DNA of 64,000 nt from Chlorobiota bacterium (GTDB lineage: Bacteria; Bacteroidota; Ignavibacteria; OLB7), in the NCBI GenBank assembly GCA_028287785.1, contig JAQBOZ010000024.1:124001-188000 (forward strand), written 5' to 3'. Positions within the stretch are counted from its first letter, which is position 1. Every line of letters begins with the position of its first letter. The position numbers were made by a program, and so were the translations under genes. Positions 7,599-48,864 of this stretch are shown one piece after another. The notes beneath the pieces are model-generated. The model had not been told where the DNA came from. It ran no database searches and saw only the letters and a program-made list of their open reading frames with translations.

Positions 7599-7706
7599 TC
7601 CCGGCAGGTGGCGTGGATGCAATGGAATCGGGCGCCATCTGTTGCAACCGGTAACTTCCGGAGAAGTGGAGTGTAGATTGGAACAACCCGAAATCCCAGG
7701 AGAACG

Positions 7707-8153: not shown

Positions 8154-8622
8154 CTTTTTTACAGGTGTCGTGTAGTTTGATCCCATGAAGGGGAGATAGT
8201 GGGCAAGGGGAGTTAAGACGGCGAATGGGGTGGAATGTTCCGGTGGGGAACGGGGGCATAAAAAAGAGAATTTTGTGGTTAGCACCTTCCAAGGCTATAT
8301 TCGGCGTGAAATTTTGATAATGCTCCCTACCCACAGAACGAAATCTAGCTTCGGTGCCAATCGGAATTGGTTTTAATGCCCGGCTTGGGCTCTCCTCCCC
8401 ATCCCCCAACCATGCTTGTTCTCCACGCTCTCGGTGAGCGCGGGTTTGCTTTGCCCATTTGGAACATTTGATTCGATCGCTCTTTCGCTGATGGCCGAAG
8501 CGGCTACGATCCGGGCTTGCGGAAAGTTGCGGTTGCCGTGTCTGGAATATTGAGATTATCAATTGCATCAACAACATATATCCATGGTACATCGAACTAC
8601 AAAATCACCAAGGAGTGCTCAG
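8154..8622 (+). other. Non-coding gap before the TonB receptor
   Basis: The gap is 469 bp and holds no convincing gene. It carries the promoter-like boxes at 8272-8303 and the AAGGAG ribosome-binding site (8610-8615) of the receptor. If the promoter is real, the receptor mRNA has a leader of about 310 nt. I see no known riboswitch motif. Confidence 0.5.
8272..8303 (+). promoter_or_regulatory. Promoter-like boxes for the TonB receptor
   Basis: TTTG (8272-8275) and TATATTCG (8296-8303) are 20 nt apart, in the pattern of the Bacteroidota primary sigma consensus. Pattern match only. Confidence 0.33.
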
Positions 8623-11600
8623 ATGAAACTCAGGCTACTAGGCTTGGCATCGATCGCGCTTCTCGCACCGCTTGTCGCGCAGGCGCAGACCACGGGGTCT
8701 GTCTCTGGCACGGTGAAGGCGGATGGGAAGCCGGCTATCGGAGCGAGTGTCAAGGTTCTTGGCACAACGCCGTTGCGTGGAGCCATTGTCAAGAGCAATG
8801 GCACGTATACCATCGCCGGCGTTCGCGCGGGCGATTATACCGTCCAGGTCAGTGGAGTTGGCTTCAAGACGGAACAGAGGTCGGGCGTGCATGTCTCGAT
8901 CGATCAGGACAGCCACGTTGACTTCAATCTGTCGTCGAAGGATGTGAAGGTCGATACGCTTGTTGTCTCCGTCCAACGTTCCAGGCCTGTTGTCATCGGC
9001 ACTTCGGGAAAGCACAGCAGCGTTACCGGGCAGCAGTTCGATCAGTCGACCTATACCAACCTGCAGCAGGCGGTTGCCCGCGCGGGCGGCGTTTCCACGG
9101 CCGGACAGAATGGCTTCGGCATCCGTGGCGGGCGTGCTTCCGAGACGCAGATCCGCGTTGACGGCGTGAAGGTGGGCGATCCGTTCCAGGGGAGCTTCGG
9201 CGCCACCAGCTCCGGTTACTATCCGACCGTGTCGGTCCTCTCGGTTTCCGAGGTGCAGGTGCTCTCCTCCGGCTTCGGCCCGGAGTATGGCGATGTGCTC
9301 TCCGGCGTGGTCAACACCGTGACGAAGGCCGGAAGCACCGAGCGCTATGAGGGCGTCTTCCGCTTCCGCACGAACGTCCCGGCGCTCTATGGCTCGGCCG
9401 ATCCGATCACCGTGAAGAAGGTTGGAACCAACATCGATACCACGCTTCCGGCCGTAAAGCTTCAGGGCTCCGGCAGCAAGCTGTATGAGTTCGGCTTCGG
9501 CGGACCGATCCCCGGCCTCTCGAACTCCTCCTTCTATATCACCGGCAAGTACAACGGTGTCAAGTATCGCGATGCCTCCTACGAGGTGTACGATATGTCG
9601 CCGGAGTTCGCGGCGCAGCGCGCGGCGGCGGCCGATCAGGCATGGGGCATGCATCTGACGCCGACCAATCTCGGCCAGGTTGCCCACGATCAGGCAATGG
9701 TGCGCGATATCAACGGAAAGTTCAAACTGAGCCTTACCGACAACAGCTACCTTGAGCTCAGCGGCGAGATCGGCCTGACGAGCCTGGAAGTCGGCGGATG
9801 GGGAAACATCTACATGCTCGATCATCCGGTCCAGCAGAGCGCCCAGTTCCCGGTCGACGCCAGCATCCTGGAGCGTGACGCGCAGCAGGTGAACCAGAAC
9901 ACGATCATCGATCGCGCATCGGCGCATTACTTCCAGTCGCTGGACGCCACGAGCTTCTTCGAGGTGACCGGTTCGTGGGTTCATCACACGACCGAGACCG
10001 GCAAGAAGGACGAGTCGAAGTCCTACGGCATCTTCGACACCTATGATATCTACGGCCCGGTTGACGCCGACGGCGACAAGGTGATCGATCGTTACGCCAG
10101 CCCGCAGGCGAACGTGGCGGTGAATCAGTATGTCAACTCCGCCACGCAGGTCTTCCTTCGCGATACCGTTACCGGCCTCTACGAGGGCGCCGAGTATCCC
10201 GGCTCCAGCCGCAACCCGTACGGCCTGATCGACGCCGACAACTTCCCGACGCACGGCAACTCCCGTTCGCTGGAGATTCGTGAGGCCGTCGAGCTGAACC
10301 TGAAGGGGAACTACGAGACGAACTTCACGCTCGGCGAGGTCAAGACGCAGGTCAAGACCGGCTTCGAGGTGACGCGGACCACGCTTCGTCGGCACACGAA
10401 CAGCCTTCCGTGGGACCCGAATCCGTTCTTCGATGTCTATGGTTATGATGCCAACTATCTGACCACCGGGAACCAGAACGTTCTTCGCGACTTCCTGAAG
10501 AACCCGTACAACCCGATCTCCGGCGCCCTCTATGTGGGAACCCGCTTCGACTACAAGTCGATCGTCTTCCAGCCGGGCGTCCGCTTCGACTTCATCAGCC
10601 CGAACACCAAGCTCCCGCCGACCCTCCGGAACACCGTTCAGGACGTGGTGGATTCGCTGGCGTCGCTGAAGGATGCGAGCATGAAGTTCCAGGTCAGCCC
10701 GCGTATCGGCGTTGCATATCCGATCACCGACGAGTCGCAGTTCCGCGTGAACTTCGCGGTCATGTTCAAGACGCCGGATCTCAACTACTTCTACGACGGC
10801 GCCTATGCCGATGCCGCCCGTGGCAACCAGCTCTTCGGCAACCCGAACATCGAGCCGGAGAAGGCATTCATCTACGAGATGGGCTACGAGGCTCAGATCG
10901 GTGAGAGCTATGCGATTGATGTGTCGGCGTACTATCGCGACATCTACAATCAGGTGGGTGTTACCTACGTCCCACAGGTTCCTTCGCCTTACGTTATCTA
11001 TAGCGTGAGCGAATACGGAAACGTCCGTGGCATCGAGATCACTGCTCGTCGCCTCCCGGCGGATCACTTCTCGGCCGAGCTCAACTACACGCTGCAGAAG
11101 GCCGTCGGCACGGCATCCTCGCCTGAGTCCAACTACACGCTGGTGACCGCGGGAGCTGATCCCTACACCGGTGAGAAGCAGAAATTCCCATTGACCGAGT
11201 ATCCCCTGAACTACGATCAGACACACGCGCTGAACTTCACCGGTACGCTCTTCTGGGGCGATAACGAGGGACCATCGATCGGCAGCTTCAAGGTGCTGGA
11301 GAATACGACCATCACCCTGGAGGCTTCCTTCTCGACCGGCCTTCCGTACACCCGTGAGGACACGCGCCAGGTTCCCGTCACCGAGTTCAACTCGCAGCGC
11401 CTGCCGTCGCAGTTCGGCACCAACGGCCATCTCGAGCGCGGGTTCAAGCTTCGCGACATCTTCGGTGAGTCGGTCGGCCGTCTCGAAGTCAGCTTCTACG
11501 CCGATGTCTTCAACCTGTTGAACACCACCGGCCCGAACTCGGTCCGTCTCTCGCCGCGCGAGGGTGATGCACGCTATTCGATCACCGGCAGCCCGGATGA

Positions 11601-17299: not shown

Positions 17300-18769
17300 A
17301 TGAGAATATCAACGCAACTTCTCCGGCGAACCGTTGCCTTGCCGGCTCTGATTCTGTCGATCCTGTGCATGGCGTGCGGCGCTCTCCATGCACAGGTCGG
17401 ATCGATGAACTACGTCTACGCCTACAACCAGTTCGCCTACGATGATTCACTGACGCTTGTTGAAGTCAATATCCAGTTCTCCAATCTGGGCCTTGCCTAC
17501 GGGAAGATAGCCGATGGCACCCTCCAGGGTCGCCTGCTCAACCGGCTGGTGGTAAGCGATACGCTCGGAAAGAATGCCGATACGATCTCCTGGATCAGTG
17601 TGGTGGAGGAGCCGAGCCAGGATGCCGATGCCATGATGATGATGGGCTCGCGTTCGCTGGCGGTGAAGCCGGGAGTCTATAAGGCCCAGGTGTTCTACCA
17701 GGATCTCGGCAACAGAAGCCGGAAGGATTCCATCACGTTTCTTCTCCCCGTTCGCAGCTTCGCCGGTGATGCCCTTCAGGTGAGTGATATCGAGGTCGTT
17801 ACCCAGTCGATGCCGTCAACCGACACCGCGAACCAGTTCTACAAGAATGGCTATATGGTGCTGCCGAACGTCACATCGGTGATCGCGCCGCCATCGCTGA
17901 CGCTCGACAGTTACGTCGAGGTCTACAACGCCGACAAGCTCCCCGGAAGCGAGTACAAGCTTCAATACGCGCTGGCGACCTCGGAGAAGAAGGTGTTCTA
18001 TCACAAGGAAGTCACATTCCCGCGTCCGCCGCATGGAACGGCGATATCGCTGAATACCACGCCGCTTGACTCGATGCCGAATGGAGTATATTATGTGATC
18101 GTGAGGGCGTTTCCCGCCACCGGCGCAAAGCGGGGGGATACCGCCATCGTCTATCATGCGTTCACCCTCCACAATCCGGATCGCACGTATGAGCTTGCGA
18201 TGGGAAGCGGAAAATCCGGCGCCACGGCCACGGCGATATCGCAGCGAAACAGCGTGACGGAGATCGATCCCATCTACTCCGGTCTCAATAACGCGGAGCT
18301 GGATCTGGAGTATGCCAAGGCAAGGTATATCGCCACCGATAACGAGAAGCAGATGTGGGAAAGCCTCTCCGGTGTCGAGGCCAAGGAGCGATTCCTCAGC
18401 AATTTCTGGGCGGCCCGCGATGACTCCCCGGATACGCCGGAGAACGAGAACAGGGAGGCCTACTACTCGCTGGTGGAGGAGGCTCGCGTGCAGTACGCCG
18501 CTCCGCTCGCCAAGCACGGCTGGGATAGCGATCGCGGCAGGGTGCTGTTGCAGTACGGCAAGCCGGATGGCGTGGAGCGCCATGTCCAGGACAACAACAA
18601 GAAGCCGTACGAGATCTGGAGCTATAACAAGCTCACCTACGATTTTGTCTTCGTGGATCGCACGCAGACGGGGCTCTACAAGCTGGTGCATTCCACCGCC
18701 CCGCGCGAGATTCATCATGATAACTGGCTGGAGGATTATACCCTCCTCAACAAGAACTGGGATAACTAA
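17300..18769 (+). CDS. GWxTD domain-containing exported protein
   Basis: The 489-residue protein starts at ATG 17300, which places a signal peptide (MRISTQLLRRTVALPALILSILCM, cleavage near LHAQ) at the N-terminus. The reading frame is open back to 17108, but that part has no signal-like or conserved features. The C-terminal third carries the GWxTD signature region: HGWDSDRGRVLLQYGKPDGVE and KPYEIWSYNKLTYDFVFVD, here with GWDSD in place of GWxTD. The middle is Ig/beta-sandwich-like. The domain is typical of Bacteroidota-Chlorobiota and related phyla, and its biochemical role is unknown. It ends the surface block begun at 8623. Confidence 0.85.
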   Translation: MRISTQLLRRTVALPALILSILCMACGALHAQVGSMNYVYAYNQFAYDDSLTLVEVNIQFSNLGLAYGKIADGTLQGRLLNRLVVSDTLGKNADTISWISVVEEPSQDADAMMMMGSRSLAVKPGVYKAQVFYQDLGNRSRKDSITFLLPVRSFAGDALQVSDIEVVTQSMPSTDTANQFYKNGYMVLPNVTSVIAPPSLTLDSYVEVYNADKLPGSEYKLQYALATSEKKVFYHKEVTFPRPPHGTAISLNTTPLDSMPNGVYYVIVRAFPATGAKRGDTAIVYHAFTLHNPDRTYELAMGSGKSGATATAISQRNSVTEIDPIYSGLNNAELDLEYAKARYIATDNEKQMWESLSGVEAKERFLSNFWAARDDSPDTPENENREAYYSLVEEARVQYAAPLAKHGWDSDRGRVLLQYGKPDGVERHVQDNNKKPYEIWSYNKLTYDFVFVDRTQTGLYKLVHSTAPREIHHDNWLEDYTLLNKNWDN

Positions 18770-18783
18770 CTGTCGTAACGTCT

Positions 18784-18806
18784 CCCATGCCCGTCACGGG
18801 CATGGG
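18784..18806 (+). terminator. Perfect hairpin between the GWxTD and acyltransferase genes
   Basis: CCCATGCCCG (18784-18793) pairs perfectly with CGGGCATGGG (18797-18806) over a 3-nt loop. A pyrimidine-rich stretch follows but no T run. It separates the surface block from the lipid genes. Confidence 0.5.
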
Positions 18807-18836
18807 AGGCCATCATCTCTCTTCCATCGGTACGCT

Positions 18837-19712
18837 CTGCTGGAACGTCTCAACGCCGCGCTCTGGCGCTTCCTGTTCGGTCCTCTCGGAAGGATCATTC
18901 CGTTCGGCCTCTGCCGCGTTGCCGCCCGTCCGCTGGCCGCGATCGCACGGGGCCTTGGGGCCCGGCGGTCGATCGTTCAACGCAATCTGAAGCTCGCCTT
19001 CCCGGAGCTTGGTTCCGATGGGATCACGCGGATCGAGCGGGCGACGTTTGTCAATCTCATCACCGTCTTTCTGGAACTGATTACCCTTCGCCACCTTTCC
19101 GATGCGGCGCTTCGCAGGCGGCTTCGCGTGCATAACATCGAGCTTCTCCGGGGCATCGGTGGGGAGGGAGCGCTGCTTCTCTCCGGTCACTTCGGCAACT
19201 GGGAGCTGCTTGCGCTGGGGGCGGCGGCCATCTCCGGCGTGCCGTTTTCCGTGGTGGTCACGCAGCAGCGGGATTACGGCCAGATCGACAGGATGCGGAC
19301 ATCGCGGGGAAATCGCCTGATACCGACAGGCCGCGCCGCGCGTGAATCGACGGCCATCCTGCGTGATGGCGGGGTGGTGGCGATGCTGGCAGATCAGTCG
19401 GCATCAGAGCGCGATCCGATCGTGCAGTTGTTCGGCATCCCCACCCATACGTTCTCCGCTCCCGCCCGGCTGGCGCTCCGCTTCCGACCCCGTATCATTG
19501 CCGGGTTCGCGGCCCGCGCGGCCGATGGGAACTACGATGTGGATCTTATGGAGATCGAGCACGCGGACCTTCCCGATACCGAGGATGGCGCGCGGGCGCT
19601 CATGCAGCGGTATGTTGAGCAGCTCGAAATCGCGATACGCCGCCATCCCGAACAATGGGTGTGGCAGCACAGGCGGTGGAAGCATTCCCCGGGAGTTCGC
19701 TACGATGATTGA
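18837..19712 (+). CDS. LpxL/HtrB-type lysophospholipid (lipid A) acyltransferase
   Basis: The enzyme transfers an acyl chain to lipid A or a related lipid at the inner membrane. The catalytic HX4E motif is seen as SGHFGNWE. Supporting family segments are RSIVQRNLKLAFPEL, GNRLIPTGRAARES, MLADQSA and QWVWQHRRWK. About 291 residues is a usual length. The start is uncertain: no ATG, GTG or TTG lies in frame between the upstream hairpin and the conserved N-terminus, so I place it at CTG 18837. An ATG inside the end of the GWxTD gene, near 18717, is the alternative. It overlaps the next gene by 8 bp. Confidence 0.85.
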   Translation: MLERLNAALWRFLFGPLGRIIPFGLCRVAARPLAAIARGLGARRSIVQRNLKLAFPELGSDGITRIERATFVNLITVFLELITLRHLSDAALRRRLRVHNIELLRGIGGEGALLLSGHFGNWELLALGAAAISGVPFSVVVTQQRDYGQIDRMRTSRGNRLIPTGRAARESTAILRDGGVVAMLADQSASERDPIVQLFGIPTHTFSAPARLALRFRPRIIAGFAARAADGNYDVDLMEIEHADLPDTEDGARALMQRYVEQLEIAIRRHPEQWVWQHRRWKHSPGVRYDD

Positions 19713-20742
19713 ACCGGAATCGCCGAACGCAACCATCTCCACGAAGAGCCTGCTGATTATTCAGAGCGGTTTTCTCGGGGATGCGGTGCTTGCCAGCGGG
19801 ATGCTTCGCGCGATTGCCGCCTCCGGCGCGGACCTTCGCGTGGGGCTTGTTGTCCGCGCGGAGTTCGGCGATCTGTTCGCGGGGCATCCGGCGCTCGCGG
19901 CGCTGCACCGCTTCGATAAGAAGCGGAAGGGGGGGACGCGCGAACTTGCCGATGCGATCCGCGCCCGCGGCTACGATACGGCACTGCTGCCGCATCGCTC
20001 GCTCCGATCCGCCTGGGCAATCTGGCGCGCCGGCATCCGGCGTCGCGTGGGGTTCCGGCAGAGCGAGGCCCCGTTTCTCCTTACCGATCGCGTGGAGTAC
20101 GATATCACCAGCCACGAAACAGATCGGAATGCGATGCTGCTGCAACGGATCGGGATCGGCTCCCGTAGAGCCTCCGCGGCTCCGTGGCTGGTTCCCGCAG
20201 CGGCTGCCGTTGTGTCGGTTAAAGACCGCATGGGGGATGCGATGCCGTTTATCGCCGTCGCCCCCGGCTCCGTCTGGGGAACGAAGCGATGGTCCCCCTC
20301 CGGGTTCGCCGCCGTGATCGCCGGCCTGCGCGACCGGGGAATGCGCGCGGTGCTGATAGGAAGCGGCGGAGAGCGCGATCTCTGCCTGGCGATCGCTCGG
20401 GAAGCGGGGCTGGATGAGCGCGATGTTCTGGCGGGAGAGCTTGGTCTGCCGGAGCTGCTGGCGACGATCGCGCTGGCCGAACGGGTGATCTCCAACGACA
20501 GCGCGCCGATTCATCTGGCCGAGAGCGTCGGCACGCCCGTGACGGCGCTTTTCGGACCGACGGTGCCGGAGTTCGGGTTTGCGCCGCGAGGGGCGGGGAG
20601 CGTGGTGCTGGGGATGGAGGGGCTCCCATGCCGGCCATGCGGGATTCACGGGGGCGATCGCTGTCCGATTGGAACGCACGAGTGCATGACCTCGATCGAT
20701 GCGGAAGTGGTGCTCGCGGCGTCGCTTGTCGAACGCCGATAA
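19705..20742 (+). CDS. Glycosyltransferase family 9 (heptosyltransferase-type)
   Basis: This 345-residue ADP-heptose:LPS heptosyltransferase-like enzyme adds core sugars to lipopolysaccharide on the cytoplasmic face. The N-terminal fold starts LLIIQSGFLGDAVLASGML. The donor-binding C-terminal signature is SNDSAPIHLAESVGTPVTALFGPT, preceded by FIAVAPGSVWGTKRW. The ATG at 19705 lies inside the last codons of the acyltransferase (the GATGATTGA overlap), so translation is probably coupled, with GGGAG upstream. Together with the acyltransferase this makes a two-gene lipopolysaccharide unit. Confidence 0.9.
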   Translation: MIEPESPNATISTKSLLIIQSGFLGDAVLASGMLRAIAASGADLRVGLVVRAEFGDLFAGHPALAALHRFDKKRKGGTRELADAIRARGYDTALLPHRSLRSAWAIWRAGIRRRVGFRQSEAPFLLTDRVEYDITSHETDRNAMLLQRIGIGSRRASAAPWLVPAAAAVVSVKDRMGDAMPFIAVAPGSVWGTKRWSPSGFAAVIAGLRDRGMRAVLIGSGGERDLCLAIAREAGLDERDVLAGELGLPELLATIALAERVISNDSAPIHLAESVGTPVTALFGPTVPEFGFAPRGAGSVVLGMEGLPCRPCGIHGGDRCPIGTHECMTSIDAEVVLAASLVERR

Positions 20743-21211: not shown

Positions 21212-23854
21212 TTGGTTAGACTGATTCGCCTACTGCCGGTCCTCGTCGTGCTTTTCGTGATCTCGGCGCTCAATCTGGGTGCACAGACCCAGCCGAAGGG
21301 ATTTCTGAAGCCCCCGCCCGCGCCCGATAACAGCGTCTATTCCTCGTTGACCTCATCGCCAACCCGTTCGGTGATCTCGCTGAACGGCACATGGCAGGTT
21401 TCCGACGATGGAGGGGATACCAAACGGAGCGTTCAGGTTCCCAGCTCGTTCAACGGGCAGGACAACCTTGTCTTTACGCGCACCTTCCAGATCCCGCCGG
21501 ATATGCTTCAGAACTATCAGTGGCGGATCGTCTGTTTCGGCGTGCAGTATCAGACCACCATCTCGATCAACGGTCAGTTCGTATCGCAGCACGAGAGCGG
21601 CATGCCCTTCACCATCAAGGTTCCCGATGAGGTGAAGCTCGCCACCACCAACACCATCAGGGTGGAGGTGACCAACCGGCTGGATTATACATCGACCGTT
21701 CCGCTGCGGAAGCTGCTGCTTGGCAATCGCACCTACGGCGGAATCTTTCGCGACATGGTGCTGCTCGGCGTGCCGAAAGTATGGATCAACGATGTCCGCT
21801 TCCAGACAGTGCTGAACGGAGCGAATGCCGAGGCAAAGTTCAACGTGCAGGTGGTTTCGGCGGCGATCAAGGGGATGAGAATCGGAGGCGGAGGGGACAG
21901 CGGCGCGGTTGAGACGCGCATGACGGAGGATCGGGGGGATTTCGAGCTTGGCATCGGCATCCGCCGTCCCGGTGGAAGCGATTCCGTCCAGGCACAGGAG
22001 GTAGGCCGCGGGACGCAGACGTTCGGGCTGGAAAGCAAGCGGACCGCGAGCATCGCCCTCTCCATTCCGGTGACCAACGCGGAGCTCTGGGCGCCGTCAT
22101 CGCCGAATCTCTATCAGGCTGTTCTACAGGTTCGCTACAAGGGGGTGCTGGTCGATGAGCAGACCATGAACGTCGGGTTCAGAACGCTGACGGTGAGCGG
22201 AACGCAGATCATCCTGAACGGCGGGCCCATCACGTTGAAGGGGGTGGTCTACCTGGAGGATTCGCAGGATTACGGGGCATCGCTTCCGTATGAGATGATG
22301 AAGAAGGATATCCAGTCGATCAAGGACATGGGGGTCAATCTCATCCGCTTTGCCGATGGCGTTCCACATCCCTATCTCCTTCAGCTCTGCGATCAGCTCG
22401 GTGTGATGGCGTTCGTCGATATCTCGATGGGAACTCCCCCCGCCGCTCTGTTCAGCGATGAAAATTACATGCGGCGCTCGCTCGACCGCGTCCGGTTTAC
22501 CGTGGATGAGGCGGGGCACAGCACCTGCGTGGTGGCGTACGGCCTGAGCGCGGTGATCCCAGGCAACAGCGACAAGGCGCTCAAGGCGGTCGGCCGTCTC
22601 AAAAACGCGCTCGACTCGCTCGATCATCGCCTCTTCTATTTCGCGTCGTCAAGCTGGGCCAACCCGCAGCTTCGGAAGCTGGCGGATATCCCCGGCATGA
22701 ATGTCTTCGATATCGATCCGCCGAAACTGCGCGACATGATCGTGGCCGCGAAAAAGGATCTCAACGGCGAGAAACCGTTTGTCCTCCTCGGCTACGGGAA
22801 GTTCGTCCAGCTCGGCAATCACACCGGCTCCAAGGACCCGATATCGATCGAGGCGCAGGCGATCTACATCAGCGATGTCTACACCATCCTTCAGCAGACG
22901 GAGACGGCCGGCGGCATCTACTGGGCGTTCAACGACTACCGGACCGATCGGCCGATCCTCACCGTCAACAACGAGGAGCAGTATCTGGCGACCTGCGGCG
23001 TCTACGGCCTGGGGCGCGATCTCCGTCAGGGAGCGGAGATGCTCTCCAATCTCTACACCGATCAGAAGCCGCCGAATGTCCTGCTCGGCGATTACAGCCC
23101 TCCTTCCACCGTCATCTTTATCGCGATCGGCATCGGCTGCGCCATCGTCTTCCTGCTGCTGATCAACAGCTCCCGGCGCTTCCGCGAAAATGTGTTCCGC
23201 GCGCTTCTGCGACCGTACAATTTCTACGCGGATATCCGCGATCAGCGCATCCTCTCCAACGTGCAGACCACGATCCTGGGGCTTGTGATCGCGTTGACGT
23301 TCGCGTTGATCGTGGCGTCGCTCTGCTATTATTATCGGATGGATGAATCGTTCGATGCAACGCTGAGCGCCATCGTCACATCGGATTTCATCAAGGAATT
23401 CCTGAACTACATCATCTGGCGTCCCGCGCTTTCGATCACGATCTTCACGCTCTTCTTCTTCGGTCTGCTGCTGCTGGTGGCGCTGATCATCAGGGCATGC
23501 GCGGCGCTGGTCAGGAATCGGATCTTCTTTACCGATGCCTACATCATCTCGGTCTGGGGAGCGCTGCCGGTGCTTCTGCTGATTGTCCCGGCGATGATCC
23601 TCTACCGGCTGCTGGGCGTTCCGGGCGCCGGGCCGATTGCATTTCTGGTGATGATGATCGTGGTGCTCTGGATGGTCTACCGCGTGCTCCGTGGAACAGC
23701 GGTGATCTACGATGTCCGGCCGCTGAAGGTGTACGGCTACGCCATCGGGACGGTCTGCGCGCTCTTCCTGGTGCTCTACGTCACCTCCGGCGAAACCAGC
23801 ACCGCGTTCAGCTATCTCCGCGAGGGGATCGGCGGGCTTTACACCGGCCGGTAA
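21212..23854 (+). CDS. Membrane-anchored GH2-like protein lacking both catalytic glutamates
   Basis: The 880-residue protein has a signal peptide, a GH2 sugar-binding jelly roll (SLNGTWQVSDDGG, about 50-180), an Ig-like domain (to about 340), a TIM-barrel region (LKGVVYLEDSQDYG to GGIYWAFNDYRTD, about 345-600) and then about six transmembrane helices (630-870). In GH2 enzymes the acid/base lies in a W-S-x-x-N-E motif. The matching segment here is AYGLSA (442-447), without Asn-Glu. The nucleophile E of the ITEYG-type motif is replaced by G527 in LLGYG. I therefore infer a sugar-binding or sensory pseudo-enzyme. The start is TTG 21212 with no clear ribosome-binding site. TACAAT at 21200-21205 could serve a leaderless transcript. 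Confidence 0.8.
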   Translation: MVRLIRLLPVLVVLFVISALNLGAQTQPKGFLKPPPAPDNSVYSSLTSSPTRSVISLNGTWQVSDDGGDTKRSVQVPSSFNGQDNLVFTRTFQIPPDMLQNYQWRIVCFGVQYQTTISINGQFVSQHESGMPFTIKVPDEVKLATTNTIRVEVTNRLDYTSTVPLRKLLLGNRTYGGIFRDMVLLGVPKVWINDVRFQTVLNGANAEAKFNVQVVSAAIKGMRIGGGGDSGAVETRMTEDRGDFELGIGIRRPGGSDSVQAQEVGRGTQTFGLESKRTASIALSIPVTNAELWAPSSPNLYQAVLQVRYKGVLVDEQTMNVGFRTLTVSGTQIILNGGPITLKGVVYLEDSQDYGASLPYEMMKKDIQSIKDMGVNLIRFADGVPHPYLLQLCDQLGVMAFVDISMGTPPAALFSDENYMRRSLDRVRFTVDEAGHSTCVVAYGLSAVIPGNSDKALKAVGRLKNALDSLDHRLFYFASSSWANPQLRKLADIPGMNVFDIDPPKLRDMIVAAKKDLNGEKPFVLLGYGKFVQLGNHTGSKDPISIEAQAIYISDVYTILQQTETAGGIYWAFNDYRTDRPILTVNNEEQYLATCGVYGLGRDLRQGAEMLSNLYTDQKPPNVLLGDYSPPSTVIFIAIGIGCAIVFLLLINSSRRFRENVFRALLRPYNFYADIRDQRILSNVQTTILGLVIALTFALIVASLCYYYRMDESFDATLSAIVTSDFIKEFLNYIIWRPALSITIFTLFFFGLLLLVALIIRACAALVRNRIFFTDAYIISVWGALPVLLLIVPAMILYRLLGVPGAGPIAFLVMMIVVLWMVYRVLRGTAVIYDVRPLKVYGYAIGTVCALFLVLYVTSGETSTAFSYLREGIGGLYTGR

Positions 23855-26195: not shown

Positions 26196-26226
26196 CGCCC
26201 GGTTCGCTTTCAAGAGCGGCCGGGTG
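26196..26226 (+). terminator. Terminator after the small gene at 25857
   Basis: CGCCCGG (26196-26202) pairs with CCGGGTG (26220-26226), with a G-U pair and an inner CGCT/AGCG stem, followed by TTCTATTT. Confidence 0.55.
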
Positions 26227-26400
26227 TTCTATTTCCGGGAGAAGGCTTACGCGGGACGGAGATTGGCAGATGCTTTGCGGCGAATTCACTATCTGCACGA
26301 TGGCTGGCCGGTGATCGAAGTGCTCCCGGCGATCCGCATACGCTCTTGTGTCCACGATCAATCACTGCGCCGCGGCGTCGCGGAAAGGGAAGCGCCTGAA

Positions 26401-27729
26401 ATGTCGTTAGCGCCAGCATTCATGTTCGCCACGGGAATCGAGAGCAGCATTCCGACAATTCGGAACGGGAGCGTCAGGGTCGACGAAATGGAAAAATGCG
26501 GTCATTACGAGCAGTGGCGCACCGATTTCGATCTTGTTCAGGAGCTTGGCATTCGATTCCTGCGCTACGGCCCGCCGCTCCATCGCGCATTTCTCGGGCA
26601 TGGTCATTACGACTGGTCCTTTACCGACGAAACCTTTACCGACCTTAAACGCAGGGATATCATCCCCATTGTCGATCTCTGCCATTTCGGTGTCCCGGAC
26701 TGGATCGGAAATTTTCAGAACACGGAATTTCCCGTGCTGTTCGCGGAGTATGCGGCCGCATTTGCGCGCCGGTACAACTGGGTGCAGCTTTACACTCCCG
26801 TCAACGAGATGTATATCTGCGCCACATTTTCCGCCCGCTACGGCTGGTGGAACGAGCAGGCAACGGACGATCGATCCTTTGTCACCGCCCTGAAGAATAT
26901 CGTGAAAGCCAACGTGCTTGCGATGCGGGCGATCCTCGATATCCGTCCCGACGCGATTTTTGTCCAGAGCGAATCGACCGAATATTTCCACGCCGATAAT
27001 CCCGCCGCAATCGCCCCCGCGGAGCGAATGAACGCCGAACGATTTCTTTCGCTCGACCTCAATTACGGCAGACGTGTCGACTCGGATATGTATGAATATC
27101 TGATGGACAGCGGGATGACGCGCGAGGAATACCATTTCTTCCTCCACAATAACCTGAAGCATCATTGCATCCTTGGGAATGATTATTATATCACCAATGA
27201 GCATCGCGTCAGTGCCGATGGCGGCACGCGTCCGGCCGGGGATGTGTTCGGGTATGATGAGATCACCTGGCAGTATTATGATCGCTACAAGCTCCCGGTG
27301 ATGCACACGGAAACCAATATCAATCAGGGGCCGAATGGCAACGAGGGGGTGGAGTGGCTCTGGAAGCAGTGGGCAAATGTGCTGAGAATCAGAAATGATG
27401 GCGTTCCGATCGTCGGCTTTACATGGTATTCGCTCACCGATCAGGTCGACTGGGATTCGGCGCTCCGGGAGGATAATGGCAACGTCAACCCTCTCGGCCT
27501 TTACGATCTTGATCGGAACATCCGCCCGGTCGGCCAGGCGTACAAGCAGTTGATCGCTGACTGGCGCCATGTGCTCCCGACGCAGAGCATCTGTCTCCGC
27601 GTCCCGGTGACGTTACCGAGCGAGTTCGATGAGGATTGGGCGCGCAGCCAGCGAGCGGAGGCCCGCAGGGAATCGGTGGATGGGGATATGTCCCCCGCCA
27701 ATGCCGATAAAGAGGGATCGCGGGGATAG
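26401..27729 (+). CDS. Glycoside hydrolase family 1-like beta-glycosidase
   Basis: The 442-residue TIM-barrel protein belongs to the GH1/clan A type. The acid/base motif is TPVNEMY with E136, and the nucleophile motif is MHTETN with E304, 168 residues apart as expected. Barrel strands are visible as LGIRFLRYGPPLH, PIVDLCHFGVPDW and VGFTWYSLTDQVDWD. There is no signal peptide with the ATG at 26401 (GGGAAG upstream), so it is probably cytoplasmic. The reading frame opens at 26224, but the extra part shows no conservation. Related proteins occur near sugar-nucleotide genes in other bacteria. The substrate is not evident here. Confidence 0.85.
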   Translation: MSLAPAFMFATGIESSIPTIRNGSVRVDEMEKCGHYEQWRTDFDLVQELGIRFLRYGPPLHRAFLGHGHYDWSFTDETFTDLKRRDIIPIVDLCHFGVPDWIGNFQNTEFPVLFAEYAAAFARRYNWVQLYTPVNEMYICATFSARYGWWNEQATDDRSFVTALKNIVKANVLAMRAILDIRPDAIFVQSESTEYFHADNPAAIAPAERMNAERFLSLDLNYGRRVDSDMYEYLMDSGMTREEYHFFLHNNLKHHCILGNDYYITNEHRVSADGGTRPAGDVFGYDEITWQYYDRYKLPVMHTETNINQGPNGNEGVEWLWKQWANVLRIRNDGVPIVGFTWYSLTDQVDWDSALREDNGNVNPLGLYDLDRNIRPVGQAYKQLIADWRHVLPTQSICLRVPVTLPSEFDEDWARSQRAEARRESVDGDMSPANADKEGSRG

Positions 27730-28012: not shown

Positions 28013-31000
28013 GTGAGATTGATCAGGATGATTGTATTCAGGTCCGATAATGCCGGGAGGTCTCCGGCGCGATCATCACGATCGTGCCTTACGGCGTTTA
28101 TCCTTCTGAATATCCTTGCGCTCCTGTTATTGCGTCCCGTCCCGGTCATGGCGCAGGAATATAATTTCAAAAACATATCTGTTGCGGATGGGCTGGCTCA
28201 ATCGCAGGTGTATTCGATGTGCGAGGACCGTCGCGGAAATATCTGGTTCGGCACGCGGGGAGGGGGAATCAGTCGATATGATGGTGTCGCGTTCGCCAGT
28301 TACGGCGAGGAAAACGGCCTGATCGATAATTATGTCCGCGCAATTCTGGAGGATCGTTCGGGAGCGCTCTGGATAGGCACCGATCACGGCGTCAGCCGGT
28401 ACGACGGGCGACGATTTGCGAGCTTTACATCACGACAGGGATTGTTTGATAATGCCGTGGTGGCGATTGCCCAGGACTCATCAGGGGCGCTCTGGTTCGG
28501 CGCGGACCCCGGAGGGCTCGCGCGTCTCGATGGTGGCCGCACAACGCGGTTTACACGCGCGGATGGACTCCCCGGCATCAATATCCGATCGCTGTTTGTC
28601 GATCGAAATGGACGGGTCTGGGTGGGAACCGAAAACGGCATTGCCGTCTATGAGAAAGGGAAATTCACATCCTATACATCGTCGAACGGCCTGCCGCACG
28701 CATCGATTTCCGACGTGGCGCAGGACCCCGCCGGCATCCTCTGGATTGCGACATATGGCGGCGGTATCGTGCGGTTTGATGGGGCCACGTTCACATCCTA
28801 CACCGTTCGCGATGGGCTCAGCAATAATACCGTGCTGACAATCAAGGCCGATGAAACCGGCACCATCTGGGCCGGAACGGGGGGGGGCGGCGTCAATCGT
28901 ATCCGCGACGGCGCGATCACGGTATTCAGCGAAACCGAAGGGCTCTGCAATAATGTGATCGTTTCCATCCTGAAGGATTCCGACGGCGATCTCTGGTTCG
29001 GCAGTTCCGGTGGCGGCGTTTCACGGCTCGATGGCGAACGTTTCGTTCACTTCACCGAGAAACAGGGGAAGCTCGGCAACTGGATTTACGCCATTTATCA
29101 GGATGACGATGGAAGCATCTGGTTTGGGAATTCATTTGGTGGCGTCACCCGATACGATGGAAAAATCTATACACGATATTCGGAAAAGGATCATTTCACC
29201 GCGGGGAAGGTGAAGTGCATCGTCCAGGATCGGAAGAAAAGGCTCTGGTTCGGCACGGTGGGCAATGGCGCGTTCGTCTATGAACACGGGATATTCCGGC
29301 ATCTGGACGCGGCCGATGGAATGCGTGGCTCGTTTGTCAACGCGATAACCGAGGACGCGGCCGGTGATATCTGGTTCGCCTGTTCGGATGCGGGAATTAT
29401 TCGCTATCGGGAGCCGGGCACGGGGGATACGGCAAGGCGATTTCTCAACCTCGGTAAAACCGCGGCGTTGGGTTGGATGCGTGTTTACGATATTCTCGCC
29501 GGTGATAATGGCGAGCTATGGGCGGGAACCGATGGCTCCGGCCTTCTGCGCGTGCGGGACGTGACCGGCCCGTCCCCCGTCGTGACCGTTTATACCACGC
29601 GCGATGGCCTGAGCAGCAACACGATCAGGACAATCGCGCGCGACAGCTCCGGGAATATTCTCTTCGGCACCGGCGGTGGCGGGCTGATGATGCACAACGG
29701 CTCGGGATTCCGGATAATCAGGAAACAGCAGGGGATAAGCTCCAACAATATTTATTCGCTTGTTGTCGACCGGGATAAACGGATATGGCTCGGCTCGGAA
29801 AAGGGAATCGACCGGATCATGGTCGATGCATGGCGTGTGACCGGTGTAAAGCATTACGGAAAGGCGGAGGGGATTACCGGCGTGGAAACCACTCAGAACG
29901 CCACCTGCCTGGATCGTGAGGGAAATATCTGGTTCGGCACGATACAGGGCGCCGTGCGTTACGATCCGCGCCAGGACCGGCCCGATAACACTCCTCCGAA
30001 AACACATATCAAGGAGATACGCCTCTTCTTCGACGACATTTCCACAACCCGTTTCGCGGACAGCATCACGCCGTGGTATCCCATTCCCGTCGGGCTTGAT
30101 CTTCCATACGATCAAAATCATCTCAGCTTCGATTTTGTTGGGATAGGACAGCGGAACCCGGACGCCGTGCGCTATCAGTGGAAAATGGACGGGCTGGAGC
30201 ATGACTGGTCACCACGGAGTGCTGAACATGCCGCCGTGTATTCCAATCTGCCACCGGGGAGCTATACCTTTACGGTCCGATCGTATAACGAGGACGGCAT
30301 CGGCGGGACGCCGGAGGAATTTCACTTCACAATCCACCCGCCGTTCTGGGGGACATGGTGGTTTACGACGCTTGCGGTGCTTCTGGCGATCGGCGGAATT
30401 ATCGGCGTGTTCATCTGGCGCCTGCGGGCCGTGCGGCTCAAGGGGGAGCGCGAACGGCACGATATCGAAATGCGGAGGGATATTGTGGAACTGCAACAGA
30501 AATCGCTCCGGCTGAGCATGAACCCGCATTTTATTTTCAATGCGCTCAATTCGATCCAGGTATTTATCACCGATAATAATCCCGGAGTGGCGCGACGCTA
30601 TCTCTCCCGTTTCGCCCGGCTGATGCGGTTGATCCTGGAGAATTCCCGCGAGACGAACGTATCGCTGGCGCGGGAGATCGATATGCTGACCAGCTATCTG
30701 GAACTGGAGCGGTTGAACCTCAATAATTCCTTCGAATATTCAATCGAAATCGATCCCGAAATCGACCCTGAGGAGATCGGGCTTCCGCCGATGCTGGTGC
30801 AGCCGTTTGTGGAAAATGCCGTGATTCATGGCGTGCGCCGCAGAGGAAGCGGGGGGATGATCCGCATCACAGTCGCGGAGTGTGAGGGGCTGCTTCAGGT
30901 GAGCATCGCCGACAATGGGATCGGCAGGGGACGCGCAGCGGAGTATTCCCGCGGCCGGGCGCCGGATCATGTGTCGAGCGCGTTGTCGGTGACCGGCGAG

Positions 31001-31126
31001 CGGCTTGCGATTATCAACCGTCAGCTCGGCACGGCGGCGCGTCTCGCCATCTCGGATCTGACCGATGAACGGGGGGAGCCATCGGGAACGCGCGTTGATC
31101 TGTATATTCCGTTCGTTGTGCGGTAA
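28013..31126 (+). CDS. Two-component propeller sensor histidine kinase (LytS type)
   Basis: The 1037-residue membrane sensor has a signal anchor (about 25-48), then many tandem propeller repeats of the form NIWFGTRGGGISRYDG making the periplasmic sensor. A Y_Y_Y-type beta domain follows (AVYSNLPPGSYTFTVRSYNEDG, about 735-765), then a transmembrane helix (FTTLAVLLAIGGIIGVFIW, about 785) and a His_kinase catalytic region. The phospho-accepting residue is H839 in MNPHFIFNALNSIQ, and the ATPase part shows FVENAVIHG and ADNGIGRGR. The start is GTG 28013 or ATG 28028. It is 35 bp upstream of its LytTR partner. The sensed ligand is unknown, and no polysaccharide-utilisation locus is adjacent. Confidence 0.92.
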   Translation: MRLIRMIVFRSDNAGRSPARSSRSCLTAFILLNILALLLLRPVPVMAQEYNFKNISVADGLAQSQVYSMCEDRRGNIWFGTRGGGISRYDGVAFASYGEENGLIDNYVRAILEDRSGALWIGTDHGVSRYDGRRFASFTSRQGLFDNAVVAIAQDSSGALWFGADPGGLARLDGGRTTRFTRADGLPGINIRSLFVDRNGRVWVGTENGIAVYEKGKFTSYTSSNGLPHASISDVAQDPAGILWIATYGGGIVRFDGATFTSYTVRDGLSNNTVLTIKADETGTIWAGTGGGGVNRIRDGAITVFSETEGLCNNVIVSILKDSDGDLWFGSSGGGVSRLDGERFVHFTEKQGKLGNWIYAIYQDDDGSIWFGNSFGGVTRYDGKIYTRYSEKDHFTAGKVKCIVQDRKKRLWFGTVGNGAFVYEHGIFRHLDAADGMRGSFVNAITEDAAGDIWFACSDAGIIRYREPGTGDTARRFLNLGKTAALGWMRVYDILAGDNGELWAGTDGSGLLRVRDVTGPSPVVTVYTTRDGLSSNTIRTIARDSSGNILFGTGGGGLMMHNGSGFRIIRKQQGISSNNIYSLVVDRDKRIWLGSEKGIDRIMVDAWRVTGVKHYGKAEGITGVETTQNATCLDREGNIWFGTIQGAVRYDPRQDRPDNTPPKTHIKEIRLFFDDISTTRFADSITPWYPIPVGLDLPYDQNHLSFDFVGIGQRNPDAVRYQWKMDGLEHDWSPRSAEHAAVYSNLPPGSYTFTVRSYNEDGIGGTPEEFHFTIHPPFWGTWWFTTLAVLLAIGGIIGVFIWRLRAVRLKGERERHDIEMRRDIVELQQKSLRLSMNPHFIFNALNSIQVFITDNNPGVARRYLSRFARLMRLILENSRETNVSLAREIDMLTSYLELERLNLNNSFEYSIEIDPEIDPEEIGLPPMLVQPFVENAVIHGVRRRGSGGMIRITVAECEGLLQVSIADNGIGRGRAAEYSRGRAPDHVSSALSVTGERLAIINRQLGTAARLAISDLTDERGEPSGTRVDLYIPFVVR

Positions 31127-31161
31127 CTGCTGTCGGTTCGGTTTATTGCGAGGTTGTTGAT

Positions 31162-31905
31162 ATGATTCGAGCTGTGATCATCGATGATATCGAGGCGGCG
31201 CGCAGGGTGCTGGCCGATGATATCGGCGCATACTGCCCGGACGTTGTCGTCGTCGGTGAGGCGTCGGGGGTGAAGAATGGGATTCGGCTCATCGAACGGA
31301 TGAAGCCCGATCTTCTTTTGCTGGATATTCAGTTGGAGGATGGCAGCGGGTTCGAGCTGCTGGAGACGATAGGGAAATACGATTTCAGGGTGATTTTTAC
31401 GACGGCATCGGACGCGTTCGGCATCCGGGCGATAAAATTCGGCGCGCTCGATTATCTCCTCAAGCCGATCGATTCGGATGATCTTGTCGCCGCGATAGAA
31501 AAATTGAAAACCATCACCCCCGCCGGCATCGGGGAAAATGTCGGGGTGATGCTGGATCATCTGAAACGGAAGGGGAGCATCGCGAAGCGGATAGCGCTCA
31601 ACACCGCGGATCGGGTTCATGTCGTCGACGTGAAGGATATCATCCGATGCGAATCACAACGAAACTATACGCTTTTCCATCTTACCGGAAAACGACAGAT
31701 CCTGGTGACCCGCACATTAAAGGAATTCGATGAACTGCTGGAGGAGTATGGGTTTTTCCGCGCGCATCATTCCCATCTGATCAATGCCGACTGTATCCGG
31801 GAGTATGTGAAGGGGGATGGCGGTTATATCGTGATGTCAGATAACAGCCAGGTTCCCGTTGCCGTGCGAAAGAAGGAATCGCTGATGAAGCTGTTCGGCG
31901 TATAG
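31162..31905 (+). CDS. LytTR-family response regulator
   Basis: The 247-residue cytoplasmic regulator has a receiver domain with D8/D9, phospho-acceptor D55 (LLLLDIQLEDGSG) and the conserved lysine in YLLKPID. From about residue 145 it has a LytTR DNA-binding domain (DIIRCESQRNYTLFHL, FFRAHHSHLIN, VPVAVRKKESL). It surely forms a pair with the propeller kinase 35 bp upstream. LytTR proteins bind direct repeats upstream of targets. The next gene downstream, an LCP-like protein, is a plausible target, which is inference. Confidence 0.94.
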   Translation: MIRAVIIDDIEAARRVLADDIGAYCPDVVVVGEASGVKNGIRLIERMKPDLLLLDIQLEDGSGFELLETIGKYDFRVIFTTASDAFGIRAIKFGALDYLLKPIDSDDLVAAIEKLKTITPAGIGENVGVMLDHLKRKGSIAKRIALNTADRVHVVDVKDIIRCESQRNYTLFHLTGKRQILVTRTLKEFDELLEEYGFFRAHHSHLINADCIREYVKGDGGYIVMSDNSQVPVAVRKKESLMKLFGV

Positions 31906-45282: not shown

Positions 45283-48200
45283 ATGTATCTCAGCAAGCTC
45301 GAAATCATCGGTTTCAAGTCGTTCGCGCATAAAACCGTTCTCAAGTTCGATGACGGCATCACCGCCGTCGTCGGCCCGAACGGCTGCGGCAAAAGCAATG
45401 TGATCGATGCCCTTCGATGGTCGATCGGCGAGCAGAAGGCCTCGGTGCTCCGCTCCGACAAGATGGAGAACGTGATCTTCAACGGCGCAGGCAAACGCCG
45501 CCCGCTCGGCATGGCGGAGGTCTCCCTCACCATCGAGAACACAAAGGGGATTCTCCCGACCGAGTACAGCGAGGTGACGATCACCCGCCGCCTGTTCCGC
45601 AACGGCGATTCCGAGTATCTGCTCAACAAAACCCAGTGCCGCCTTCGCGATATCGTCGACCTCTTCATGGATACCGGCATGGGGGCAAACGCCTACTCGG
45701 TGATCGAGCTGAAGATGATCGAAACGATCCTCTCCGACCGCGCGGACGAGCGCCGGAAATTGTTCGAGGAGGCCGCCGGCGTCACCAAGTACAAGGTCCG
45801 CCGTCGCGAGGCGCTTCGGAAGCTGGACTCCACGCAGCAGGATCTTGTCCGCGTGAACGATATCATCAAGGAGGTGGGCAAGAAGGTCTCCTCGCTGGAA
45901 CGGCAGGCGAAGAAGGCGGAGGAGTTCGCGAAGCTGGATGAGGAGCGGAAGCGGCTGGAGGTGGAGATCCTGGAACGCGAGTACAGCGCCACGGTCGGCA
46001 GGATTTCCCCGCTGGAGGTGCGGCTGGTGGAGGCGCGCTCGAAAAAGGAGGCGCTGGATACGCAGCTTGCCGAGGAGGAGGAGCTGCTGCTGGAGCTGGA
46101 GGCGGAGCACAAGGAGATAGAAGCGGCGCTTGGCGAGGCGCAGAAGGATGTGAACGCCATCAGCGGACGGATAGCGCAGGTGGAGCAGCGGCGCGCCGTG
46201 GCCGAGGAACGCCGCCGGTCGCTGAACGCGGTGATCGAGCGGGCGGAGCGCGACCGGATGGAGGCCGAGGGGGGAATCGAGGCGCTGGCGCACGACCGGA
46301 AGGAGATCGAGGAGGCGCTCATCAGGATCAGGGAGCAGGTGGAAGGGGCGGAGTTCGATCTTGAGAAGATGCGCGCCGAGGTTTCCTCCGCCGAGGGGGA
46401 GGTCAACGAGCTGCGCCGCCAGGCGAAGGGCTCGCAGGACAGGGTGATCGCCGCCATCAACCGGATCGCCGAACTGCGTGGCGAGGAGGAGCGGACCCGC
46501 GCGCGGATGGAGAATATCTCCGGTCGCCTTTCCCAGTTCGATGATGAGGATGAGGAGGCCCGGAGCGATCGCCGGCGGGCGGAGGAATTGCAGATGGAGA
46601 TCGAGGCGGAGCAGGCGGCCGCGCAGATCCGGCTGGACCGCGCGCAGCAGGAGTTTGAGGCGGGGCAGGAGGGAAAGGCGCAGCTTCGCTCGGAGATCGA
46701 TGAGCTTCGGGGCATGACGCAGGATATCCATAACGGCATCAATACGCGCCAGTCGAAGATAGAATTTCTCTCCAGCCTTGTCGATCAGGATGAGTCGGTA
46801 CGGTTTCTCGTTGCCCAGCCGGACTGGAGCCCGGTGGAGCGGATCACCGTCTCCGAGGCGCTCGCCACCGATGAACGTTTCCGGCTTGCCGTTGCCGCGG
46901 CGCTCGGCAGCGCGGCGCATTATCTGATCGTCCCGACGCTGGAGGATGCCAAGCGCGGCATGCACTCGCTTGCCTCCAACCGGAAGGGAAAGGTGACGTT
47001 CGTCTGTCTGGACCGGATTGCCATCGCGCCATCGCCGGCGCGGATCGACGGGGCCAGCGTGATCGGCTGGGCTGGGGATCTCTGCACGTCGGCGCCGGAG
47101 CATGACGCGCTCCGCCGGACGCTGCTGAACCACACGCTGATTGTCGAGACGCTGGAGGATGCGACCGGGGTTGTCTCCAGCGGCGCGGCCGAAACCGCGG
47201 TGACGCTGGATGGCCTGTTGGTGCGCGCCGGCGGCGTGATCCGCGGCGGCGGCCAGATGAAGAACGAGGGAAACACGATCGGCAAACGCGAGCAGATCGA
47301 ACGGCTGACCCGCGAGGCCGATGAGCTTCGCGCGCGTCTGGCGGAGCTTGAGGACCGGATAGCCCGCGTCACCGGCCAGCACAACGAGATCAACCTGGGG
47401 ATTCTCTCCGATGGAATCCGCAAGGCCCAGCAGGAGCTTGGTCAGGTGGAGAAGCGTCGCGCGCAGGTGGATTACGAGCTGGAATACGCCGAGGATCTGC
47501 TGGAGGAGCATGCGATCGAGCGGGGGAAGTTCGAGGAGGAGCTGCATCGCCTGGGCGGATTACTGGAGGGGACCGAGCCCCGTCGCGCGGAGCTGCGCGC
47601 CGAGCAGGAGCAGGCGGAGCGGGGCGCGCGCGAGCTGGCAGTTGAGCTGGAACGGGTGGAGGCGGGATTTGCCGAGCGGGCGAAGCTGCTGAACGAGGTG
47701 CAGCTTGCGCTTGCATCCTTCCGGAACGAGGAGCGGAGCGCGAAGGTGGAGCTGGAGAGGATCAGGCGCGATCGCGAGAACGCCGAGCGGATGATCGAGA
47801 ACCGTCGCGTGGAGCGGGAGCGGGCGCAGGAGGAGCTGGAAGTGCTGGAAGCCTCCATGCACGAGGGGGGCGATCAGCTTGAGAGCTTCAAGGCGGAGCT
47901 TGCGGAGGCGCAGATCCGGCGCGATCAGATCGTGAAGCAGCAGGCCGCCAAGCGCGAGGAGATCGTAAAGCATTCCGAGACGCTGCGCGAGGAGCGGAAG
48001 GGATATGAGTCGGCGATCGGGCAGACGCACGAGCTGGAGATCAAGATCAACGAGCTTCGCCTCCGCGCCGAGGCGATGGTCCAGCGCGGCCGTGATGAGC
48101 TGGAAGTGGAACTGGAGGTGAAGGATTATTCGAGCGATGAGACGGAAATCCTGATGGGGGCGCTCCGCGAGCAGCTCCGACAGATCAAGGGCCGGATCAA

Positions 48201-48864
48201 GATGCTCGGCACGGTGAACCTTCTGGCGTACGAGGAGTGGAAGGAGGAGAGCGAGCGGTTTGCGTTCCTGAAGGGGCAGAGCGACGATCTGCGGAACGCC
48301 GAGAAGACGCTGCTTGAGACGATCGAGGAGATCAACACGACGGCGCAGACGAAGTTCATGGAGACGTTCGAGGAGATCAGGAAGAACTTCGTCAGCATCT
48401 TCACATCGCTCTTCGCCGAGGGGGATGAGGCGGATCTGAAGATCGAAGAGGGCGATCCCCTGGAGGCGCAGGTGGAGATTATCGCAAAGCCGCGCGGCAA
48501 ACGCCCGCACACGATCGACCTCCTTTCCGGCGGAGAAAAAACGCTGACGGCGATCGCCCTGCTCTTCGCCATCTACCTGGTGAAGCCATCGCCGTTCTGT
48601 ATTCTGGATGAGGTGGACGCGCCGCTGGATGACGCGAACATCGATCGCTTTGTCCAGCTTGTCCGGCGCTTCTCGAAGGATACGCAGTTTATCATCGTCA
48701 CCCACAACAAGCGGACAATGTCCGCCGCCGACACGATGTACGGCGTGACGCAGGAGGAGGATGGCGTTTCGAAGATCGTTTCAGTCCGCTTCACCGAGAG
48801 CGTCAAACGCAACGGAACCCCGCGCAACGAAGAGCCGGAGGCAACTGCTGCTGCTGCGGCGTAG
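45283..48864 (+). CDS. smc: Chromosome segregation ATPase SMC
   Basis: The 1193-residue condensin-type ATPase organises and segregates the nucleoid as a dimer with ScpA/ScpB. The N-terminal head has MYLSKLEIIGFKSFAHKT and Walker A GPNGCGKSN. Long coiled coils (about 170-500 and 690-1020) flank a hinge (about 510-680). The C-terminal head has the ABC signature LLSGGEKTLTAIALLF and Walker B FCILDEVDAPLDDANI. The protein ends in an EEPEATAAAAA tail. Length and order are normal. No Shine-Dalgarno sequence is evident before the ATG. A palindromic repeat follows the stop by 6 bp. Confidence 0.97.
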   Translation: MYLSKLEIIGFKSFAHKTVLKFDDGITAVVGPNGCGKSNVIDALRWSIGEQKASVLRSDKMENVIFNGAGKRRPLGMAEVSLTIENTKGILPTEYSEVTITRRLFRNGDSEYLLNKTQCRLRDIVDLFMDTGMGANAYSVIELKMIETILSDRADERRKLFEEAAGVTKYKVRRREALRKLDSTQQDLVRVNDIIKEVGKKVSSLERQAKKAEEFAKLDEERKRLEVEILEREYSATVGRISPLEVRLVEARSKKEALDTQLAEEEELLLELEAEHKEIEAALGEAQKDVNAISGRIAQVEQRRAVAEERRRSLNAVIERAERDRMEAEGGIEALAHDRKEIEEALIRIREQVEGAEFDLEKMRAEVSSAEGEVNELRRQAKGSQDRVIAAINRIAELRGEEERTRARMENISGRLSQFDDEDEEARSDRRRAEELQMEIEAEQAAAQIRLDRAQQEFEAGQEGKAQLRSEIDELRGMTQDIHNGINTRQSKIEFLSSLVDQDESVRFLVAQPDWSPVERITVSEALATDERFRLAVAAALGSAAHYLIVPTLEDAKRGMHSLASNRKGKVTFVCLDRIAIAPSPARIDGASVIGWAGDLCTSAPEHDALRRTLLNHTLIVETLEDATGVVSSGAAETAVTLDGLLVRAGGVIRGGGQMKNEGNTIGKREQIERLTREADELRARLAELEDRIARVTGQHNEINLGILSDGIRKAQQELGQVEKRRAQVDYELEYAEDLLEEHAIERGKFEEELHRLGGLLEGTEPRRAELRAEQEQAERGARELAVELERVEAGFAERAKLLNEVQLALASFRNEERSAKVELERIRRDRENAERMIENRRVERERAQEELEVLEASMHEGGDQLESFKAELAEAQIRRDQIVKQQAAKREEIVKHSETLREERKGYESAIGQTHELEIKINELRLRAEAMVQRGRDELEVELEVKDYSSDETEILMGALREQLRQIKGRIKMLGTVNLLAYEEWKEESERFAFLKGQSDDLRNAEKTLLETIEEINTTAQTKFMETFEEIRKNFVSIFTSLFAEGDEADLKIEEGDPLEAQVEIIAKPRGKRPHTIDLLSGGEKTLTAIALLFAIYLVKPSPFCILDEVDAPLDDANIDRFVQLVRRFSKDTQFIIVTHNKRTMSAADTMYGVTQEEDGVSKIVSVRFTESVKRNGTPRNEEPEATAAAAA

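Follow-up and report, generated by a model that had tools for sequence, protein, structure and literature searches.

The gene at positions 21,212 to 23,854 of the window (the whole 64,000-nucleotide stretch of DNA that was analysed) encodes a protein with the glycoside hydrolase family 2 (GH2) fold that has lost its catalytic residues and carries a C-terminal membrane block. Relatives of this protein were found throughout nearly the whole class and are under purifying selection; in most loci the gene lies directly before smc, and in one family of another class a shortened, barrel-only form of it comes directly after ftsZ. We propose, with a rough probability of 0.45, that it is an inner-membrane GH2 pseudo-enzyme held by a transmembrane (TM) anchor and a Yip1 module, which would have a binding role in an envelope or cell-cycle function.

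Domain architecture and catalytic residues

The features discussed below are listed by their coordinates in the window.

21212..23854, + strand: pseudo-glycosidase open reading frame (ORF), 880 aa, TTG start, intact
21212..21286, + strand: signal peptide, residues 1-25 (MVRLIRLLPVLVVLFVISALNLGAQ), with a hydrophobic segment at 4-22 and the cleavage site placed by eye
21344..21826, + strand: GH2 sugar-binding (jelly-roll) domain, approximately residues 45-205 (PF02837; PF22666 matches more weakly)
21827..22192, + strand: GH2 immunoglobulin-like domain, approximately residues 206-327 (PF00703)
22193..23077, + strand: GH2 TIM-barrel domain without catalytic residues, approximately residues 328-622 (PF02836), under purifying selection in relatives
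22550..22555, + strand: Ala447-Val448 at the position of the canonical acid/base Asn-Glu
22790..22792, + strand: Gly527 at the position of the canonical nucleophile Glu
23108..23164, + strand: TM1, residues 633-651, predicted from hydropathy as the anchor linking the ectodomain to the Yip1 domain
23174..23242, + strand: residues 655-677 (RRFRENVFRALLRPYNFYADIRD), a juxtamembrane motif predicted to be cytoplasmic and better conserved than any other stretch
23201..23779, + strand: Yip1 domain (PF04893, Pfam), residues 664-856, with TM2-TM6
45283..48864, + strand: smc, 21 kb downstream of the pseudo-glycosidase gene

The Pfam analysis of the window protein detected Glyco_hydro_2 (PF00703) at residues 241-324 (E 7e-10) and Glyco_hydro_2_C (PF02836) at residues 328-583 (E 1.9e-9), together with Glyco_hydro_2_N (PF02837) at residues 53-188 (E 3.9e-6), whose 27.3 bits are slightly below the cut-off of 28. 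The best matches in a PDB sequence search were GH2 beta-glucuronidases and beta-galactosidases (top E 1.7e-21), headed by the Bacteroides uniformis beta-glucuronidase. The order of sugar-binding domain, Ig-like domain and TIM barrel, which had been read from the sequence in the initial annotation, was thus borne out by both searches, and it is shared with BuGUS-2 (PDB 6d8g/5uj6) and with UidA and LacZ of E. coli. GH2 enzymes were also the best Foldseek matches: with the GH2-part model, the top 50 hits were all GH2 (best E 7e-23), which is supportive only, as the model is poor. Because the AlphaFold2 models are of low confidence (the full-length model has a pLDDT of 43.7, and the model of the GH2 part one of 48.5), pocket geometry was not taken from them. 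The gene is present in one copy in its own genome, and its product is the sole GH2 barrel encoded there.

To set the catalytic columns, the family was aligned with 18 canonical GH2 proteins, most of which belong to the same phylum, and L077 and L015, two members whose sites are intact, served as a bridge. In this alignment, W443-G-I-G-N447-E448 of L077 corresponds to Y443-G-L-S-A447-V448 of the window protein, and E527 of L077 to G527. Furthermore, the Arg-His of the "RHED" motif is replaced by Y347-L348, and the His of the "HYP" motif by D382. Unlike the GH2 enzymes that it matches, the window protein therefore lacks the catalytic Asn-Glu, the nucleophile Glu, the His and the Arg. Its PF02836 score is 37.5 bits as against 168 bits for L077. 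The earlier proposal that both catalytic glutamates are replaced, with Gly527 in place of the nucleophile, agrees with the bridge alignment. The same alignment shows that the acid/base position was assigned one residue off, at S446-A447 instead of A447-V448; no acid is present at the true column, and a one-residue slip that placed the Asn-Glu on S446-A447 would still leave it without an acidic residue. The barrel end GGIYWAFNDYR, described initially as well kept, was found at residues 567-577, but W571 is a Trp in just 29 of 127 aligned members.

The hydropathy profile shows one hydrophobic segment in the signal peptide and six beyond residue 630 (at 633, 687, 742, 778, 808 and 840, in all spanning 633-858), in agreement with the "about six" TM helices noted at first, and these can be assigned to one anchor and to TM2-TM6 of the Yip1 domain. 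When residues 622-872 were searched in isolation, PF04893 was matched with an E of 1.4e-6 and a score of 28.7 bits, which just passes the cut-off (28.6), whereas Yip1 is absent from the list in the full-length Pfam scan. PF04893 was matched (E up to 1) by 32 of 49 family members, and several relatives exceed its cut-off in whole-genome searches. An hhalign comparison of the block with the profile of standalone Yip1 proteins of the same class gave an E of 5.5e-4 over the C-terminal 103 columns, with a probability of only 30%; two Yip1 subfamilies compared with each other gave a weaker value (E 0.0047). We take the block to be a Yip1 domain behind one anchor helix. The PDB sequence search yielded only weak, cytochrome-oxidase-like matches for it (E 0.07 or worse). 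Judged by description, none of the GH2 chains in the PDB that the protein matches contains a TM and Yip1 block.

Residues 652-686, which begin directly after TM1, have a mean conservation of 0.67, compared with 0.28-0.41 in the rest of the protein, and a net charge of +3.8; positive charge lies on the predicted inner loops. On the basis of the positive-inside rule, we infer that this stretch lies on the cytoplasmic side of the membrane and the GH2 part on the periplasmic side. The juxtamembrane motif follows the pattern RRFRE...NF..DIRD, which is also kept in copies consisting of the Yip1 part only.

Distribution, loss of catalysis and selection in the family

The window protein was matched by 59 of 61 sampled relatives, mostly over the full length, and the orthologue in L050 (JADZEY010000123.1) is 62% identical to it. 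A survey of 395 genomes of the phylum with a profile of the membrane block, 98 of them from the same class, found the block in 96 of these 98, usually within one gene of approximately 870 aa; in the other two it was not detected at the sensitivity used. In other classes of the phylum the block was found at high score in about 16 genomes from four families. The occurrence of orthologues across the class rules out a rare oddity or a sequencing artefact. When compared with the 18 canonical GH2 proteins, the family forms one clade (SH-aLRT 99).

Among the 127 aligned members, neither glutamate is present in 81, the nucleophile only in 36, the acid/base only in 8 and both in 2. The last two are L077 and L015 (genus g28, family f16), which have the full canonical RHED, GHYP, GNE and EYG motifs and are the only members with a complete site, on the same GH2-Yip1 architecture as the window protein. 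Orthologues with an intact site and no membrane domain would have spoken against a membrane-fused pseudo-glycosidase derived from a hydrolase; intact orthologues do exist, but they carry the membrane block. The orthologues as a whole hold the block, mostly without the catalytic residues, which supports this description. Since some members retain only the acid/base and others only the nucleophile, complete catalytic loss was probably more than one event, and regain is conceivable; in an AU test on a reduced set, a single clade of the 33 degenerate rows was not rejected (p 0.33).

Whereas the catalytic columns vary, N376 and G539 are invariant in all 127 members and Q549 is present in 124 of them. 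At the barrel mouth, G539, Y540 (Y or F) and Q549 are kept in 98-100% of the members. Among 13 close pairs, every dN/dS value that could be calculated lay between 0.03 and 0.18, be it for the sugar-binding/Ig, the barrel or the membrane segment. These values rule out a decaying pseudogene and show that the dead barrel is maintained.

A split homologue was observed in L070 (G028), at positions 7447-9902, where it extends over three frames with breaks near 8806-8824 and 9505-9567. This genome is a single contig, two genomes of the same genus carry the homologue intact, and the breaks represent either sequencing errors or a pseudogene.

Gene neighbourhood and shortened forms

In 72 of the 89 scored loci (which take in four Yip1-only copies), the homologue is directly followed by smc, encoded on the same strand, with a gap of mostly -1 to 25 bp. 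When neighbours were clustered, smc was found in 29 of 41 loci and the next most frequent cluster in at most 12 of 41. The genes that follow smc were read from the sequence as lpxB, lpxK, a DUF374-type acyltransferase and others, and the lipid A genes occur close to the pseudo-glycosidase gene less frequently than smc does. Adjacency to smc is not seen in the window's own genus and in some other lineages: in the window, recQ follows the pseudo-glycosidase gene and smc lies further on, on the same strand, while in the related genus G002 smc is 336 bp downstream of the homologue.

Several other genes were recorded around these loci. Upstream of the pseudo-glycosidase gene in the window (18312-20742) there are a lipid A acyltransferase (PF03279) and a glycosyltransferase of family 9 (PF01075). 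Downstream in the window there are a GH1-family protein (26224-27726; PF00232, E 1.8e-13), in which NE and TET motifs appear by eye to be present, and a two-component pair (28013-31902) of a Reg_prop/Y_Y_Y/His_kinase sensor and a LytTR response regulator. In L075, L084 and L085 (family f14 and one other), where the clustering of neighbours did not give smc as the downstream gene, a gene of approximately 2,300 aa adjoins the homologue upstream, on the opposite strand, and was called by eye as SprA-like (type 9 secretion).

Two kinds of shortened form were found. In the four genomes of family f10, the Yip1 part alone is encoded by an ORF of 260-312 aa located before smc. No convincing GH2 remnants were detected upstream of these genes; the best match (35 residues, E 0.008) is at the edge of L052, distant from the gene. 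The occurrence of the membrane part without the GH2 part fits a membrane module as the functional core. Nine further families of the phylum have ORFs of mostly 530-680 aa that are also matched by the membrane profile and whose ectodomain is the barrel alone, without the sugar-binding and Ig domains. The barrel of this cousin aligns with the GH2 barrel of the family over 258 columns (hhalign probability 99.8, E 1.7e-30). In family f45 the cousin gene directly follows ftsZ in 8 of 8 loci, within the cluster murG-murC-ftsQ-ftsA-ftsZ; in f28 it is separated from ftsZ by approximately 1.1 kb, in f51 by 4.6 kb. In ten other loci, no division genes were found near it.

Taken together, the smc and ftsZ contexts and the survival of the membrane part in copies that have no GH2 part suggest that this membrane module acts in the envelope or the cell cycle and that its periplasmic domain would bind instead of cutting. 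Because smc lies downstream and the shortened homologue directly after ftsZ, the gene context points to envelope or cell-cycle housekeeping over the sensing of nutrient sugars. The adjacency to smc may also be plain old operon structure with the lipid A genes lpxB and lpxK.

Proposed role, alternatives and significance

According to the explanation that we favour, the ancestor would have been a working membrane-bound GH2 enzyme, and in most lineages catalysis would have been lost piecemeal, while purifying selection held the fold and the barrel mouth (G539, Y540, Q549) and, above all else, the RRFRE...NF..DIRD motif. The present-day protein would then bind rather than cut: what the dead barrel holds may be a component of the envelope, either a partner protein or a glycan such as peptidoglycan or LPS. 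The Yip1 module, together with the conserved cytoplasmic loop, may relay this binding to, or anchor, a partner on the inside with a part in chromosome segregation, in division or in the growth of the envelope. The survival of f10 without the GH2 part counts against this explanation, as do the lineages in which smc is not a neighbour and the two same-class genomes in which the block was not detected; nor is the adjacency of genes in itself proof that they work together. A more specific version, in which the dead glycosidase reads the cell wall from the periplasm and the Yip1 domain and loop couple it to the SMC or FtsZ machinery in the non-Bacteroidia of the phylum, is unlikely as it stands.

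The f10 genes can also be read in another way, namely that TM1 and the Yip1 module provide the entire function and the GH2 part is carried along as a passenger that slowly erodes. The position of the Yip1-only genes, the same place before smc, would fit such erosion, as would the barrel-only forms without sugar-binding and Ig domains, the many different combinations of catalytic-residue loss and the location of the best conservation in the cytoplasmic motif. However, the dN/dS of the GH2 domains (0.03-0.18) is near that of the membrane part, N376 and G539 are still invariant, and nearly all lineages retain the ectodomain, so that we consider a mere passenger rather unlikely.

The initial annotation had suggested a carbohydrate receptor or sensor, in which the dead GH2 pocket would bind an external or envelope sugar and the membrane block would signal. 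The retention of the pocket-mouth residues G539, Y540 and Q549 despite variable catalytic residues, and the purifying selection on the barrel, are compatible with this. Such a sensor is nevertheless distinctly unlikely: the window protein sequence contains no signalling domain, the residues of the active-site pocket themselves vary widely across the family, the surrounding genes are smc and those for lipid A and division, not for sugar utilisation, and the barrel can be wholly absent.

The membrane block also invites comparison with YknW, a Yip1 protein of Bacillus that modulates the assembly of the YknXYZ ABC transporter (PMC4887032). The likeness to Yip1 proteins of this kind consists of the membrane block, which is at the Pfam cut-off; the window protein differs from them in its GH2 ectodomain and its conserved RRFRE...DIRD cytoplasmic segment. 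By analogy, it could serve an envelope transporter or the lipid A pathway as an accessory subunit, for which lpxB and lpxK after smc in many loci, and the lipid A acyltransferase and family 9 glycosyltransferase that precede the gene in the window, could be cited. We regard this as very unlikely, given that no transporter, ABC or other, recurs among the identified neighbour gene clusters, and smc is more often near than the lipid A genes. A protein that is still an enzyme, by non-canonical residues or by another reaction, is similarly improbable despite the two relatives with a complete site, the 36 with the nucleophile and the retention of E349 of "RHED" in 79 of 127 members, the window protein among them, since this protein lacks the nucleophile, the acid/base Glu, its Asn, the His and the Arg together and no substitute catalytic position is conserved among the 127 aligned members.

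Pseudo-glycosidases as such are already known. Klotho proteins are animal GH1 pseudo-glycosidase co-receptors with a single TM helix; they resemble the window protein in having a membrane-anchored glycosidase fold with incomplete catalytic residues, but they differ in family, host and number of TM helices, and no GH2 homology is implied. A working analogy for the binding role that we propose is given by the degenerate LytM factors EnvC and NlpD, from a LytM subset whose members are described as lacking catalytic activity and regulating wall hydrolases (PMC8416486); in them, dead wall-hydrolase folds are retained as envelope regulators at division. These have a peptidase fold, and neither the LytM factors nor YknW are related in sequence to the GH2 part. 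The open-access literature searched yielded no account of a Yip1 domain joined to a GH2 pseudo-enzyme, nor of the present gene, which occurs beside smc in single copy across nearly the whole class.

This one family shows every stage, with members whose site is intact, members that have lost it in part or completely and members in which the entire ectodomain is gone, which makes it a natural series leading from an enzyme to a binding or scaffold protein. For most members, the database label "glycoside hydrolase" would mislead. The smc and ftsZ contexts provide a concrete prediction of a possible cell-cycle or envelope factor in these poorly studied bacteria.
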